Origin: Methanobacteriota archaeon
GTDB lineage: Archaea > Thermoplasmatota > Thermoplasmata > RBG-16-68-12 > JAJISG01
Assembly: GCA_030594205.1 (NCBI GenBank)
Contig: JAUVFR010000002.1
Coordinates: forward strand, 1 to 64,000
Direction: 5' to 3'
DNA: 64,000 bases
The stretch's first letter is position 1. Every line of letters begins with the position of its first letter. Below, piece after piece: positions 12,820 to 49,074 of this stretch. The position numbers and the translations under genes are program-made. Under the pieces are notes generated by a model. That model worked only from the letters and a program-made list of their open reading frames with translations, was not told where the DNA came from and made no database searches.

Positions 12820-13214
12820 GGCGTCTTCCTCGTGAACGTGTAGCGCGTCGGCACCCGGCGCTTGAGACCCGACCAGTAGGGGCAGTTGCGGCACCGATGC
12901 CCCAGCGTCACCGTGCCTCCGAATATGGTCATGTTCTTCACACGATTCATTCGATGCCCGCACACGGGGCACCGGTGGGGCGTTCCCACTTCCTTGCCCT
13001 CGCGGCTCTCGATTTCCATGTTCACGAGGCCCGAGTCGTACGCGATGCGGCGGGCCCTCGGTCCGCTCACCCGGTATCCATCCTCCTGGGCCATCTCGGA
13101 ATCGAGCAACTCCTTGAGCTCTCGTTGGGAGACGATGGTCCTGCGCCTGCCGAGCACGCGTTCGAGGGCTCCCACGACCCTCTCCCGCGAGGGGATGCGA
13201 TAGCTCGGCATCAC
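12816..13214 (-). CDS. zinc-ribbon protein, function unknown
   Basis: A 132-residue protein with a helical N-terminal half (about 8-70) that could be a winged helix, and a C-terminal zinc ribbon: CPVCGHRM near 79-86 and CRNCPYW near 108-114. It overlaps the downstream MBL-fold nuclease gene by 4 bp, indicating coupled translation and probably a shared task. An AT-rich element (taaagattt, around 13238) could serve as its promoter. Confidence 0.7.
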   Translation of the reverse strand: MMPSYRIPSRERVVGALERVLGRRRTIVSQRELKELLDSEMAQEDGYRVSGPRARRIAYDSGLVNMEIESREGKEVGTPHRCPVCGHRMNRVKNMTIFGGTVTLGHRCRNCPYWSGLKRRVPTRYTFTRKTP

Positions 13215-13266
13215 CGCGCTAATGGCCAGGTTGTGTTAAAGATTTCGAAGCTGACCTGTCAGGAAC

Positions 13267-13280
13267 AGCCTTAATTAGGG
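13267..13280 (+). promoter_or_regulatory. TATA-like box for the cyclic-DPG synthetase-like gene
   Basis: agccttaattaggg is an isolated AT-rich element 55-68 nt before the ATG at 13335. It predicts a short leader and supports 13335, not a later codon, as the gene start. Confidence 0.5.
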
Positions 13281-13334
13281 CCCCGTACTGGGTTGCGCCG
13301 AAGCCGACGGACCGCGGTCCAGAGGTGCGGACGC

Positions 13335-14685
13335 ATGTCCAGGAAACGAGTCATCATCATGGGTGCCGCCGGACGGGACAGCTTCGGAGGGAAGCCTGCG
13401 GAGCCCCGGGTTCCATAACTTCAACCTCGGGTTTCGGGATCGAGACGCGTATGAGGTGGTGGCCTTCACGGCCACCCAGATTCCGAACATCGAGGGAAGG
13501 CGGTATCCGGCCAGCCTAGCGGGACGCCTGTACCCCGAGGGCATCCCTATTCGCGGGGAGGAGGAGTTGCCCGCGCTCATTCGGGAGCACGATGTGGATC
13601 TTGTCGTCTTCGCCTACAGCGACGTCTCATACGAATACGTCGGCCATCGCTCCGCCCTCGTCCACGCTGCCGGGGCGGACTTTCTCCTGATGGGTCCTGA
13701 CCGGACCATGCTGGAAGCGGCCGTCCCCGTCATCGCGGTCTGTGCCGTGCGGACCGGGGCCGGCAAGAGCCAGACGTCGAGGCGCGTGGCCTCCATCCTT
13801 CTGGACCGGGGCAAGAAGGTCGTCGTGGTCCGTCACCCCATGCCCTACGGGAATCTGGAAACACAGGCGGTCCAGCGGTTCGCCTCACTTGAGGATCTGG
13901 ATCGGTACGAGACCACCCTGGAGGAGCGCGAAGAGTACGAGCCGCATCTGGAGCGGGGGATCGTCGTGTTTGCGGGGGTGGATTACGGGGCCATTCTGGA
14001 GAAGGCCCAGAGGGAAGCGGAGATCATCCTGTGGGACGGGGGGAACAACGATCTCCCCTTCTATCGGCCCGACCTCCACATTGTCCTCGTAGACCCACAC
14101 CGGCCGGGTCAGGAGCTGAGCTCGTATCCCGGGGAGGCGAATCTTCGACGCGCTGACGTGGTCATTGTGAACAAGGTTGAGACCGCTCGATCCGAGGACG
14201 TGGCCTTGGTCCGCGCGAACGTCGACGCGGTCAACCCGGCAGCGCAGGTGATCGAGGCCGCCTCGCCCATCACCGTCTCGGACCCGAAACTCGTCAAGGG
14301 GAAGCGCGTCCTCGTGGTGGAAGACGGGCCGACCCTCACGCACGGCGGGATGCCGTACGGGGCCGCATGGCTGGCGGCCAAGCAATATGGTGCGGCCTCC
14401 GTGGTCGATCCCCGGCCCCATGCCATTGGCACCATCAAGGACGTTTTCGAACGGTATCCGCACTTGAAGGAAGTCCTACCGGCCATGGGCTACGGGGAGG
14501 ATCAGCTCAAGGAGTTGGAGGCGACGATCAACGGATGCGAGTGCGACCTCGTCCTGAGTGGCACACCGGTGGACCTCGGGCGCCTCATCCAGATCACGAA
14601 ACCGCTCTTGCGGGTCCGCTACGAGCTTCAGGAGAGGGGCAAACCAACCCTCGACGAAATTCTGGACGCCTTCCTTTCCACGTGA
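13335..14685 (+). CDS. cyclic 2,3-diphosphoglycerate synthetase-like GTPase (COG2403), with a 31-nt BHB intron; CDS joins 13335-13379 and 13411-14685
   Basis: The genomic frame starting at 13335 reads MSRKRVIIMGAAGRD and then runs into a stop. The remainder, from FHNFNLGFRD on, is in a different frame. The family normally has GAAGRDFHNFN uninterrupted, so removal of 13380-13410 restores exactly the conserved sequence and gives a 439-residue protein. Other features are FTATQIPNIEGRRYP, the P-loop VRTGAGKSQTSR (about residue 145), ILWDGGNND and NKVE. The family includes cyclic 2,3-diphosphoglycerate synthetase, which makes an archaeal compatible solute from 2,3-bisphosphoglycerate, but many members are only predicted GTPases. 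The gene stands alone between divergent and tRNA genes. Confidence 0.9.
13380..13410 (+). other. BHB (tRNA-endonuclease type) intron in a protein-coding gene, 31 nt
   Basis: The junctions fold into a complete hBHBh' motif. Outer exon helix: gga (13371-13373) with tcc (13412-13414). Central 4-bp helix: cggg (13374-13377) with cccg (13405-13408). Two 3-nt bulges: aca (13378-13380) and ggt (13409-13411). Intron helix: gcttc (13381-13385) with ggagc (13400-13404). Cleavage between the second and third bulge nucleotides removes exactly 31 nt, and the joined codons give GRDFHNFN, the conserved family sequence. Structure and protein evidence therefore agree independently to the nucleotide. Confidence 0.9.
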
Positions 14686-14705
14686 GGAGAAACCCGGCCG
14701 AGTAC

Positions 14706-14713
14706 CTTTTTAT
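14706..14713 (+). promoter_or_regulatory. TATA box of tRNA-Leu
   Basis: tttttatc lies 25-32 nt upstream of the tRNA 5' end, the standard archaeal distance. Confidence 0.6.
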
Positions 14714-14737
14714 CGACGCCAATCTCTCATCTGCGCT

Positions 14738-14822
14738 GCGAGGGTAGCCAAGTCCGGCCAACGGCGACAGACTCAAGATCTGTTCCCATAGGGGTTCCCA
14801 GGTTCGAATCCTGGCCCTCGCA
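14738..14822 (+). tRNA. tRNA-Leu (CAA), no intron
   Basis: 85-nt type II tRNA: acceptor gcgaggg/ccctcgc with discriminator A, anticodon stem acaga/tctgt with loop ctcaaga (anticodon CAA), a long variable arm after the anticodon stem, and T loop ttcgaat. CCA is not encoded. Confidence 0.95.
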
Positions 14823-15125
14823 TCCTCATTGCCTCCCCCCTTCGGCATCTTCCTCCTCTTGAACGTCGTTGTAGTAGCGGTGGGAACTTGGCCAGGGCCT
14901 TGGAGCGAGATCAGCGTGACCTCGCGGTCATGGAGATCACCGAGATCGCCGCCCTTATGGATTTCTTGGCCTCCGGTTTCGGTTTGACCTGGCGAAGAAC
15001 GCGACGGAGCTCTACACTAAGAAGCTGGAGAAACTGGCGAGGACGTAGCTCCCGCCGCCCCTCATCTCGAGCCCCAGGGCTTGCCTGGATTCCGCCAGAG
15101 GTCTCAAGTAGGGTTTCCGTGTAGG
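14823..15125 (+). other. gap with possible decayed coding sequence
   Basis: About 300 bp without a convincing gene. A short charged helical C-terminal segment can be read in one frame (DLAKNATELYTKKLEK, ending in a stop at 15046-15048), but its upstream frame has no plausible protein character. It may be a gene remnant. No RNA gene was recognised. Confidence 0.3.
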
Positions 15126-26368: not shown

Positions 26369-26455
26369 GCCACTGTAGCTCAGCTGGTTAGAGCGGCGGT
26401 CTCGTAACCATGCCGGGAGAACCGCAGGCCGAGGGTTCGACTCCCTCCAGTGGCT
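26369..26455 (+). tRNA. tRNA-Thr (CGT) with a 13-nt intron (26407-26419)
   Basis: 87 nt in the genome, 74 nt after splicing. Acceptor gccactg/cagtggc with discriminator T, anticodon stem gcggt/accgc, loop ctcgtaa (anticodon CGT) interrupted after position 37. A minimal BHB forms: ctcg (26401-26404) with cggg (26414-26417), flanked by 3-nt bulges taa and aga. The intron is so short that it leaves almost no intron-internal helix. Confidence 0.93.
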
Positions 26456-26670
26456 CTTTCCCCAAGGAAGCGGCTAGGCCGACCTGGGAGCAGCCATCCT
26501 TGAGATTCTCTTCTTCGCGGAGCGCAATCCGGCGAGGAGAGGACGTTGGCAAATCACGATTCTTAGAAGGGAACAGGCTTGGTGCAATCCACACGCGCGC
26601 CAGAATCGCTCTGGAGACTCGCGTGTCTTGAGCGAGTTCTCACGTCGGCGTAGAATGGGGATGCCTCGGC
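26456..26670. other. gap: no gene recognised
   Basis: About 215 bp between tRNA-Thr and the coiled-coil gene stop. No RNA fold, promoter or conserved frame was seen. Confidence 0.4.
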
Positions 26671-48828: not shown

Positions 48829-48914
48829 GCCGCGGTAACTCAGTTGGGAGAGTGCCAGACTGAAGCCGTCTGGCAGACATCTGGAAGTCGCCGGTTCGAG
48901 CCCGGCCCGCGGCA
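48829..48914 (+). tRNA. tRNA-Phe (GAA) with a 13-nt intron
   Basis: 86 nt, 73 after splicing. Acceptor gccgcgg/ccgcggc with discriminator A; D arm actc/gagt; anticodon stem ccaga/tctgg with spliced loop ctgaaga (anticodon GAA); T loop ttcgagc. The intron after position 37 is about 48867-48879. The central helix of the BHB is only partly paired (3 of 4), so the exact boundaries carry some doubt. Confidence 0.9.
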
Positions 48915-48961: not shown

Positions 48962-49074
48962 CCCGCCTTAGCTCAGTTTGGCGAGAGCGGCTGACTGTAG
49001 TGGGTTCCCGGAGCGCGGGCTCCGGTTCGGCCGCTGAGATCAGCAGGTCCCCGGTTCAAATCCGGGAGGCGGGA
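48962..49074 (+). tRNA. tRNA-Tyr (GTA) with a 38-nt intron (49001-49038)
   Basis: 113 nt, 75 after splicing. Acceptor cccgcct/aggcggg with discriminator A gives C1-G72 and A73, the archaeal tyrosine identity set. Anticodon stem gctga/tcagc, loop ctgtag plus a, anticodon GTA. T arm cccgg/ccggg. The intron folds into a stable hairpin (cggagc/gctccg), but the junction helix agtgg/ccgct does not give a canonical 3-4-3 BHB, so a relaxed motif or slightly different cut sites is possible. Confidence 0.88.

Follow-up and report, generated by a model that had tools for sequence, protein, structure and literature searches.

Removal of a BHB intron from the cbf5 pre-mRNA of Sulfolobales and Desulfurococcales was reportedly described by Watanabe in 2002. 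The cbf5 introns are 16-44 bp long and their motifs are frequently relaxed (in all but two of seven new predictions), their birth has been linked to the relaxed heterotetrameric endonuclease, and unconfirmed predictions in other genes as well as 12-bp inserts in a rudivirus are also mentioned, according to the accessible part of Yokobori 2009 (PMC2738675). In Haloferax volcanii, a 46-nt BHB intron in the 5' UTR of HVO_1309 was shown by circRNA-seq and in vitro cleavage, the Haloferax endonuclease strictly needing hBHBh', and besides HVO_1309 only cbf5 is given as known in the available portion of that source (PMC7714728). The homodimeric endonuclease of a member of Thermoplasmata, Ferroplasma, handles engineered BHB introns in mRNA in yeast, and homodimeric endonucleases also cut BHL-like motifs, as far as the accessible text of PMC8707768 states. 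Among two-repeat enzymes, those of A. fulgidus and T. acidophilum are narrow in specificity, whereas the heterotetrameric and epsilon2 forms are broad, with 1RLV being the alpha'2 endonuclease of A. fulgidus, in the excerpts available of PMC6379350. Full-text literature searches, with subscription papers mostly outside their coverage, brought up no coding-region case besides cbf5 among the papers listed; the original prediction for the locus described below likewise knew of none in its gene family or in Thermoplasmatota. Of the established mRNA cases listed there, cbf5 in Crenarchaeota stands, and the list lacked the 5'-UTR intron of HVO_1309 from Euryarchaeota (PMC7714728, accessible part).

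The locus lies in the window, that is, the whole 64-kb stretch of DNA that was analysed, from the genome G000; G001 denotes the genome of another genus of the same family and G003 that of a relative whose gene lacks the intron. In a cDPGS-like or "predicted GTPase" gene at 13335-14685 (+), a 31-nt insert at 13380-13410, AGCTTCGGAGGGAAGCCTGCGGAGCCCCGGG, splits GRD from FHNFN (Table 1). The ATG at 13335 opens 15 codons, MSRKRVIIMGAAGRD, after which come the insert and the FHNFN... frame with its stop at 14685; the unspliced reading from this ATG reaches a stop after 27 aa, and joining 13379 to 13411 gives a single 439-aa ORF. The joining of the two out-of-phase frames into GRDFHNFN on removal of 13380-13410, as originally predicted, was thus confirmed to the nucleotide. 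With a probability of about 0.93, estimated from sequence comparison, the insert is a BHB intron predicted to be excised from the mRNA by the tRNA-splicing endonuclease, the exons being likely joined by RtcB. Its length, called very small before, is ordinary next to the 16-44 bp given for cbf5 introns in the available part of PMC2738675. Group I and group II introns and an intein were dismissed for 13380-13410 on size (31 nt), and the Rfam scan of 13200-15000 returned a tRNA as the sole match.

Table 1. Features of the interrupted gene and its surroundings (positions in the window; a slash within a bulge marks the predicted cut)
Feature	Position	Strand	Remark
Possible Shine-Dalgarno GAGGTG	13322..13327	+	7 nt 5' of ATG 13335; read from sequence
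Exon 1, MSRKRVIIMGAAGRD	13335..13379	+	matches N-terminus of continuous homologues
Outer helix h, 5' strand GGA	13371..13373	+	exact-register test
Central helix H, exon strand CGGG	13374..13377	+	exact-register test
5' bulge AC/A	13378..13380	+	predicted cut 13379/13380
31-nt BHB intron (predicted)	13380..13410	+	sequence comparison and register; splicing inferred
Intron hairpin h'	13381..13404	+	13381-13386/13399-13404, G.G, 13388-13390/13395-13397, tetraloop 13391-13394
Central helix H, intron strand CCCG	13405..13408	+	exact-register test
3' bulge GG/U	13409..13411	+	predicted cut 13410/13411
Outer helix h, 3' strand UCC	13412..13414	+	exact-register test
Exon 2, FHNFN... to stop, cDPGS-like / "predicted GTPase" family	13411..14685	+	
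tRNA-Leu(CAA), not part of intron	14737..14825	+	directly downstream of gene

The gene family is found across archaea and bacteria under the source names "cyclic 2,3-diphosphoglycerate synthase" or "predicted GTPase", one and the same protein, P0008, being cDPGS at NCBI and "predicted GTPase" at JGI. A profile of 18 members matches the solved structures 9sxb, 8oru, and 8ork (cDPGS) over ~110 residues only, and therefore the function of the protein is not settled; the Pfam CobW match to it lies near the cut-off.

With the cuts fixed by the protein, the RNA of G000 takes the layout GGA-CGGG-AC/A ... CCCG-GG/U-UCC, in which the central helix H has 4/4 Watson-Crick pairs between two 3-nt bulges, the outer helix has 3 bp, and the intron helix consists of 6 bp and a further 3 bp separated by G.G. 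The same register in G001 gives 4/4 pairs in H, 3 outer pairs, and an inner helix of 2+mismatch+7, with UU/U as the 3' bulge, so the strict hBHBh' (4-bp H, two 3-nt bulges, outer and inner helices) is present at both junctions. Cutting after the second nucleotide of each bulge produces the frame-restoring boundaries, GRD/FHNFN. Among the 17 registers from -8 to +8, all four central pairs occur in register 0 alone, which in G000 is also the sole register yielding GRDF. The exact-register test bears out the complete hBHBh' of the original prediction, with its 4-bp central helix, two 3-nt bulges, and endonuclease cuts identical to the frame-restoring ones; the 5-bp intron helix given there has to be corrected to 6+3 bp around G.G. 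The strict motif alone is common, with 52 matches on both strands of the window and a frequency of ~6e-6 for any given pair of cut sites; the case for an intron rests on register and conservation. When the insert was shuffled with the exons fixed, the four central pairs appeared in 2.4% (G000) and 4.5% (G001) of trials.

Folded as a 44-mer, the G000 sequence has the BHB as its minimum, at -21.9 kcal/mol, and the BHB conformer of G001 lies 1.7 kcal/mol above the minimum. In the first fold, of 71 nt, neither the central nor the outer helix formed, and the energy was no better than that of shuffles (z 0.12). The intron hairpin is stable in all longer contexts, with a probability of 0.76-1.0 for the pairs able to form, the broken ones being 4-23 in G001 and 8-19 in G000. 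The probability of the central helix of G000 depends on the context, amounting to 0.98 with flanks of 10, 15, 60, and 100 nt (last pair 0.86-0.95), 0.71 with 45-nt flanks (last pair 0.09), 0.38 with 20, and 0.04 with 30; that of G001 forms at 0.75-1.0. The outer helix is short (3 bp), strong in some G000 contexts only, and weak in G001 (0.05-0.29) because other pairs extend H there.

The pre-mRNA is predicted to fold locally into the BHB, after which the archaeal tRNA-splicing endonuclease would cut behind 13379 (AC/A) and 13410 (GG/U) and RtcB would seal the exons, with both cleavage and ligation extrapolated from the known enzymes. The spliced message would carry a 31-nt deletion joining ...GGACGGGAC to TTCCATAAC, and it alone would give the full 439-aa protein, the unspliced one presumably giving a 27-aa peptide. 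With no more than 27 codons open in the unspliced message, splicing could limit the expression of the protein. For the cutting step, one ORF with two PF01974 domains is encoded in G000 (L032, on the reverse strand of G000:C64), as in G001 and four other members of the order (6/6 genomes tested), which corresponds to the one-gene, two-repeat arrangement of the alpha'2 splicing endonuclease. This ORF matches solved splicing endonucleases, among which 5x89, whose chain carries two molecule names, ranks first, followed by 1r0v (a 305-aa entry)/1rlv and others, and it conserves FKYGxxFR...HxKY in the C-terminal repeat, which we take to be the catalytic residues of the splicing endonuclease. RtcB (PF01139) is encoded in G000 and G001 as well, and the genome thus holds both the endonuclease and the ligase that are expected with archaeal BHB introns.

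The tRNA genes of the host were scanned for the same geometry in 14 of 15 retrieved long loci of G000 and G001 and in three stretches of the window, under settings looser than in the mRNA test (outer helix of 4 or more, inner of 2 or more, three Watson-Crick central pairs). It was found at the anticodon loop in 8/14 tRNA loci (L202, L204, L205, L206, L207, L211, L212, and L216), with introns of 15-31 nt. A match elsewhere in L209 and a second one in L212 were taken for chance, and the scan gave no match in L203, L208, L210, L213, L214, and the three window stretches. The ARAGORN isotype calls are doubtful for several of the scanned loci. Of the tRNA genes on the forward strand of the window, that at 26369-26456 is called tRNA-??? 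without introns and tRNA-Thr(CGU) with a 13-nt intron once introns are allowed, and a tRNA-Leu called AAG at 48829-48914, the anticodon call being doubtful, adjoins a tRNA-Tyr called with a 38-nt intron at 48962-49074.

Homologues whose proteins contain the inserted residues had been named as an observation that would speak against the intron. Three protein searches, each contributing the best 120 of ~8000 scored, gave 276 distinct proteins; among these listed matches, G..GRDF is uninterrupted in 248/276, and the other 28 belong to the interrupted clade or are gene calls starting downstream. Within the order, 33 of the 37 genomes searched were matched, in G033 at the C-terminus only, and 30 of the remaining 32 are continuous across the site, the interrupted two, G000 and G001, being the family's only two genomes in the examined set. 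Among the best 80 of 581 genome-contig loci, an FH.FN-type motif directly follows GRD in 74, a continuous variant, FHVFN or FCLFN, occurs in L035, L042, L055, and L095, and L071 and L101 were missed by the FH.FN pattern, L101 being continuous on a separate look. The alignment of related loci, proposed originally as a check, brought out a same-length, diverged insert: G001, with a protein identity of 72-73%, has 31 nt at the same site, of which 22/31 are identical to the G000 insert and 9/31 differ.

Fourteen proteins among the matches listed (P0001-P0007, P0011-P0014, and P0016-P0018, with P0001 being the window's own) read DG[T/I]A, 9 residues, and FHN, all at one length, and the translated insert of P0002 is identical to that of P0001. 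The DG[T/I]A stretch corresponds to exon 1 and the intron read in the exon-2 frame. The gene call of P0008 begins inside this stretch, and the calls of P0009, P0010, P0015, P0019, P0020, P0023, P0024, and P0026, and also of P0081, start downstream. In a tree on the protein body, covering 100 of the first 208 proteins, the 27 non-continuous rows (15 intron, 8 truncated, and 4 odd ones, P0081 being left out) fall on one side of a single branch with support 92/66, which suggests one intron gain in the ancestor of the clade, without observed loss, as the simplest reading of the sequences. The odd proteins P0021, P0022, P0025, and P0027 form one group (100/99) with unrelated short N-termini before F[H/Q]NFN; the pairing of H requires the exon Arg codon CGC, CGT, and CGC in P0022, P0025, and P0027, respectively, and P0021 (Q before F) is incompatible with the intron register. 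These four may carry a diverged intron that shares its origin with the 31-nt one but differs from it in length. Their DNA was sought in 400 genomes of the class, where the best match of P0025 was G001 at 74%, and in viral contigs, which gave none.

At the DNA level the insert was read in G000 and G001 alone, the further rows being mutually related protein translations. Between the two genomes, 5/7 unpaired but 4/24 paired intron positions differ (Fisher p 0.012), and of the four paired changes from G000 to G001, two make G.G into A-U (8-19), one makes U-G into C-G (5-22), and the fourth breaks U-A (4-23). The feasibility of pairing was scored in 13 of the 14 proteins, P0002 being dropped for its duplicate insert, with a free choice of synonymous codons; since these rows are protein translations with hidden wobble bases, the count is one of feasible, not observed, pairs. 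Up to 127/130 inner pairs are feasible versus 102 +/- 3.8 upon permutation of the eight helix residues within rows (0/2000 reach this value), with P0016 attaining 8/10 and P0017 9/10, and codon-phase slides score lower (0.61-0.80 vs 0.93); H is feasible in 13/13 distinct rows. Because second codon positions face each other in the intron helix, some pairs are readable with little ambiguity, such as 9-18, which is A-U in 10 rows, A.C in P0016, G with C or G in P0014 (G-C compatible), and C or G with G in P0017 (C-G compatible). The position preceding FHN is occupied by G, V, A, or D and no other residue, all of them with GNN codons, and nt 23-25 encode G, S, R, or C alone, each compatible with NGY; this restriction would be odd in a peptide but matches exactly the GNN and NGY demanded by H and h'. 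As judged from these comparisons, the insert evolves as an RNA helix rather than as a peptide.

A translated insert was considered in the form of a programmed +1 frameshift, a very unlikely alternative in which a slip at GAG CCC-C near the 3' end of the insert would yield GRD, ~10 residues, and FHNFN. CCC-C is a shift-prone site, GAGCCCCG occurs in both G000 and G001, where a +1 shift would rejoin the frame, and the insert peptides of the two would share S..G.P.EP. However, the insert changes avoid codon position 3 in the frame concerned, that of exon 1 (4/3/2 at positions 1/2/3 vs 101/54/238 in exon 2, Fisher p 0.03), which speaks against translation up to a frameshift; moreover, the 248/276 continuous homologues among those listed have no residue between GRD and F, and the conserved bases are explained by the helix constraints in the 13 rows, GAGCCCCG being part of h' and H. 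The insert thus lacks the signs of translation and of peptide selection expected in a frameshift gene. Translation from GTG 13363 (MPPDGTA...), with the N-terminus replaced in the clade and the upstream frame a relic, is highly improbable, even though the listed gene calls of 13/14 clear rows use this position, PPDGTA is conserved, and the insert changes in that frame, 3/2/4, are not unlike those of coding sequence, a count that is undecided on such a start and gives no argument against reading in that frame. GTG 13363 has no Shine-Dalgarno-like sequence, whereas ATG 13335 has GAGGTG, which we take to be one; exon 1 keeps VIIMGAAGRD in frame in both G000 and G001; PPDGTA is the out-of-frame reading of GRD and the intron start; and the 9 residues that follow vary at constant length in a pattern fitting base pairing.

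A 31-nt insertion that broke the gene, leaving a pseudogene, or that arose in assembly would be compatible with the origin of the window from a draft genome of 69 contigs, but it is extremely improbable, with both another genus and contigs from several database sources carrying the same-length insert and with exon-2 changes biased to the third position (238/393), as under lasting purifying selection. The sequencing artefact allowed for in the original prediction is thereby excluded in substance. Ribosomal bypassing was set aside on visual inspection, since the take-off codon GAC is not matched by the codon that precedes TTC, which is GGG in G000 and GTT in G001. The BHB intron is the preferred reading at the probability given above.

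Some observations concern the surroundings of the predicted intron. Exon 1 reads VIIMGAAGRD in both G000 and G001, and the seven codons before the 5' cut, 13359-13379, are nucleotide-identical between them, the longest run of identical codons in 420 exon-2 codons being 4; around this segment, the RNA may be constrained beyond the BHB. In G001 (L003 1405-1484), no in-frame ATG, GTG, or TTG precedes the ATG of MGAAGRD, and the place of the G000 start is taken by an ATA that GGAGGTG precedes by 7 nt, which may mean a rare start codon, a sequencing error, or translation beginning at the internal ATG. In both G000 and G001 a tRNA-Leu(CAA) follows the gene at a distance of ~50 nt. The intron-less gene of G003 (L009) likewise has it immediately 3', so that this arrangement probably predates the intron. 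Among the 23 loci of relatives scanned, tRNA-Leu(CAA) comes directly after the gene in L003 and L009 and ~1.2 kb after it in L012, tRNA-Leu(UAA) comes directly after it in L029, and the other 19/23 have none in the DNA available.

Further mRNA introns of this kind were sought as well. The 52 strict motifs of the window reduce to 16 ORF-joining entries, 13380-13410 among them; ten of the 15 others were inspected and rejected, two against the ORF list, of which one is an antisense reading and the other falls at the end of SRP54, and eight as spurious by eye. A codon-bias scan of the window and 20 stretches of 20 kb led from 3200 motifs to 23 matches, all inspected and none convincing, a weak negative since the scan missed 13380-13410 itself, the exon 1 of which is too short.

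Confirmed splicing of archaeal coding sequence rests, within the literature searched, on cbf5 in Crenarchaeota. The clade-wide fixed 31-nt strict BHB intron in uncultured Thermoplasmatota, predicted to be removed by a two-repeat endonuclease of narrow specificity, probably represents a second, independent origin of coding-sequence pre-mRNA splicing in Archaea. The mechanism is known, the novelty being in the gene, the lineage, and the enzyme context: the action of a strict enzyme on an mRNA intron has a precedent, but inside coding sequence such action would be new within the same literature. If true, archaeal coding introns need no relaxed heterotetrameric enzyme, as so far seen only for the 5'-UTR intron, and a strict-motif case with a two-repeat enzyme would make the idea of intron birth through the heterotetramer testable for coding introns, with a second gain to compare. 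Gene callers overlook such introns, the exon-1 frame being used by 0/14 of the clear protein entries, and clade-shared, same-length, out-of-frame N-termini are suggested as a recipe for the search.

Compared with the known systems, as far as the accessible parts of the sources go, the locus resembles cbf5 in having a short intron within coding sequence (16-44 bp in cbf5, 31 here) that is clade-restricted and variable in its inner sequence, with predicted cuts between the second and third bulge residues restoring the ORF (PMC2738675). Unlike the cbf5 type, it lies in another gene and another lineage, has the strict hBHBh' instead of a frequently relaxed motif, and occurs with a single two-repeat endonuclease ORF in place of a heterotetrameric enzyme; the splicing of cbf5 was shown with cDNA, whereas that of 13380-13410 is deduced from the sequences. 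With HVO_1309 it shares an mRNA BHB intron of the strict hBHBh' required by the Haloferax enzyme, the intron being predicted and coding here but experimentally shown and in an untranslated region there (PMC7714728). The Ferroplasma system likewise combines a BHB in mRNA with a Thermoplasmata enzyme, although it is engineered, artificial, and placed in yeast, in contrast to the natural conserved site described here (PMC8707768). Finally, the geometry is that of archaeal tRNA introns at 37/38, as in the 8/14 scanned loci of G000 and G001, one of them with an intron of 31 nt, but the site lies in the coding sequence of an mRNA.
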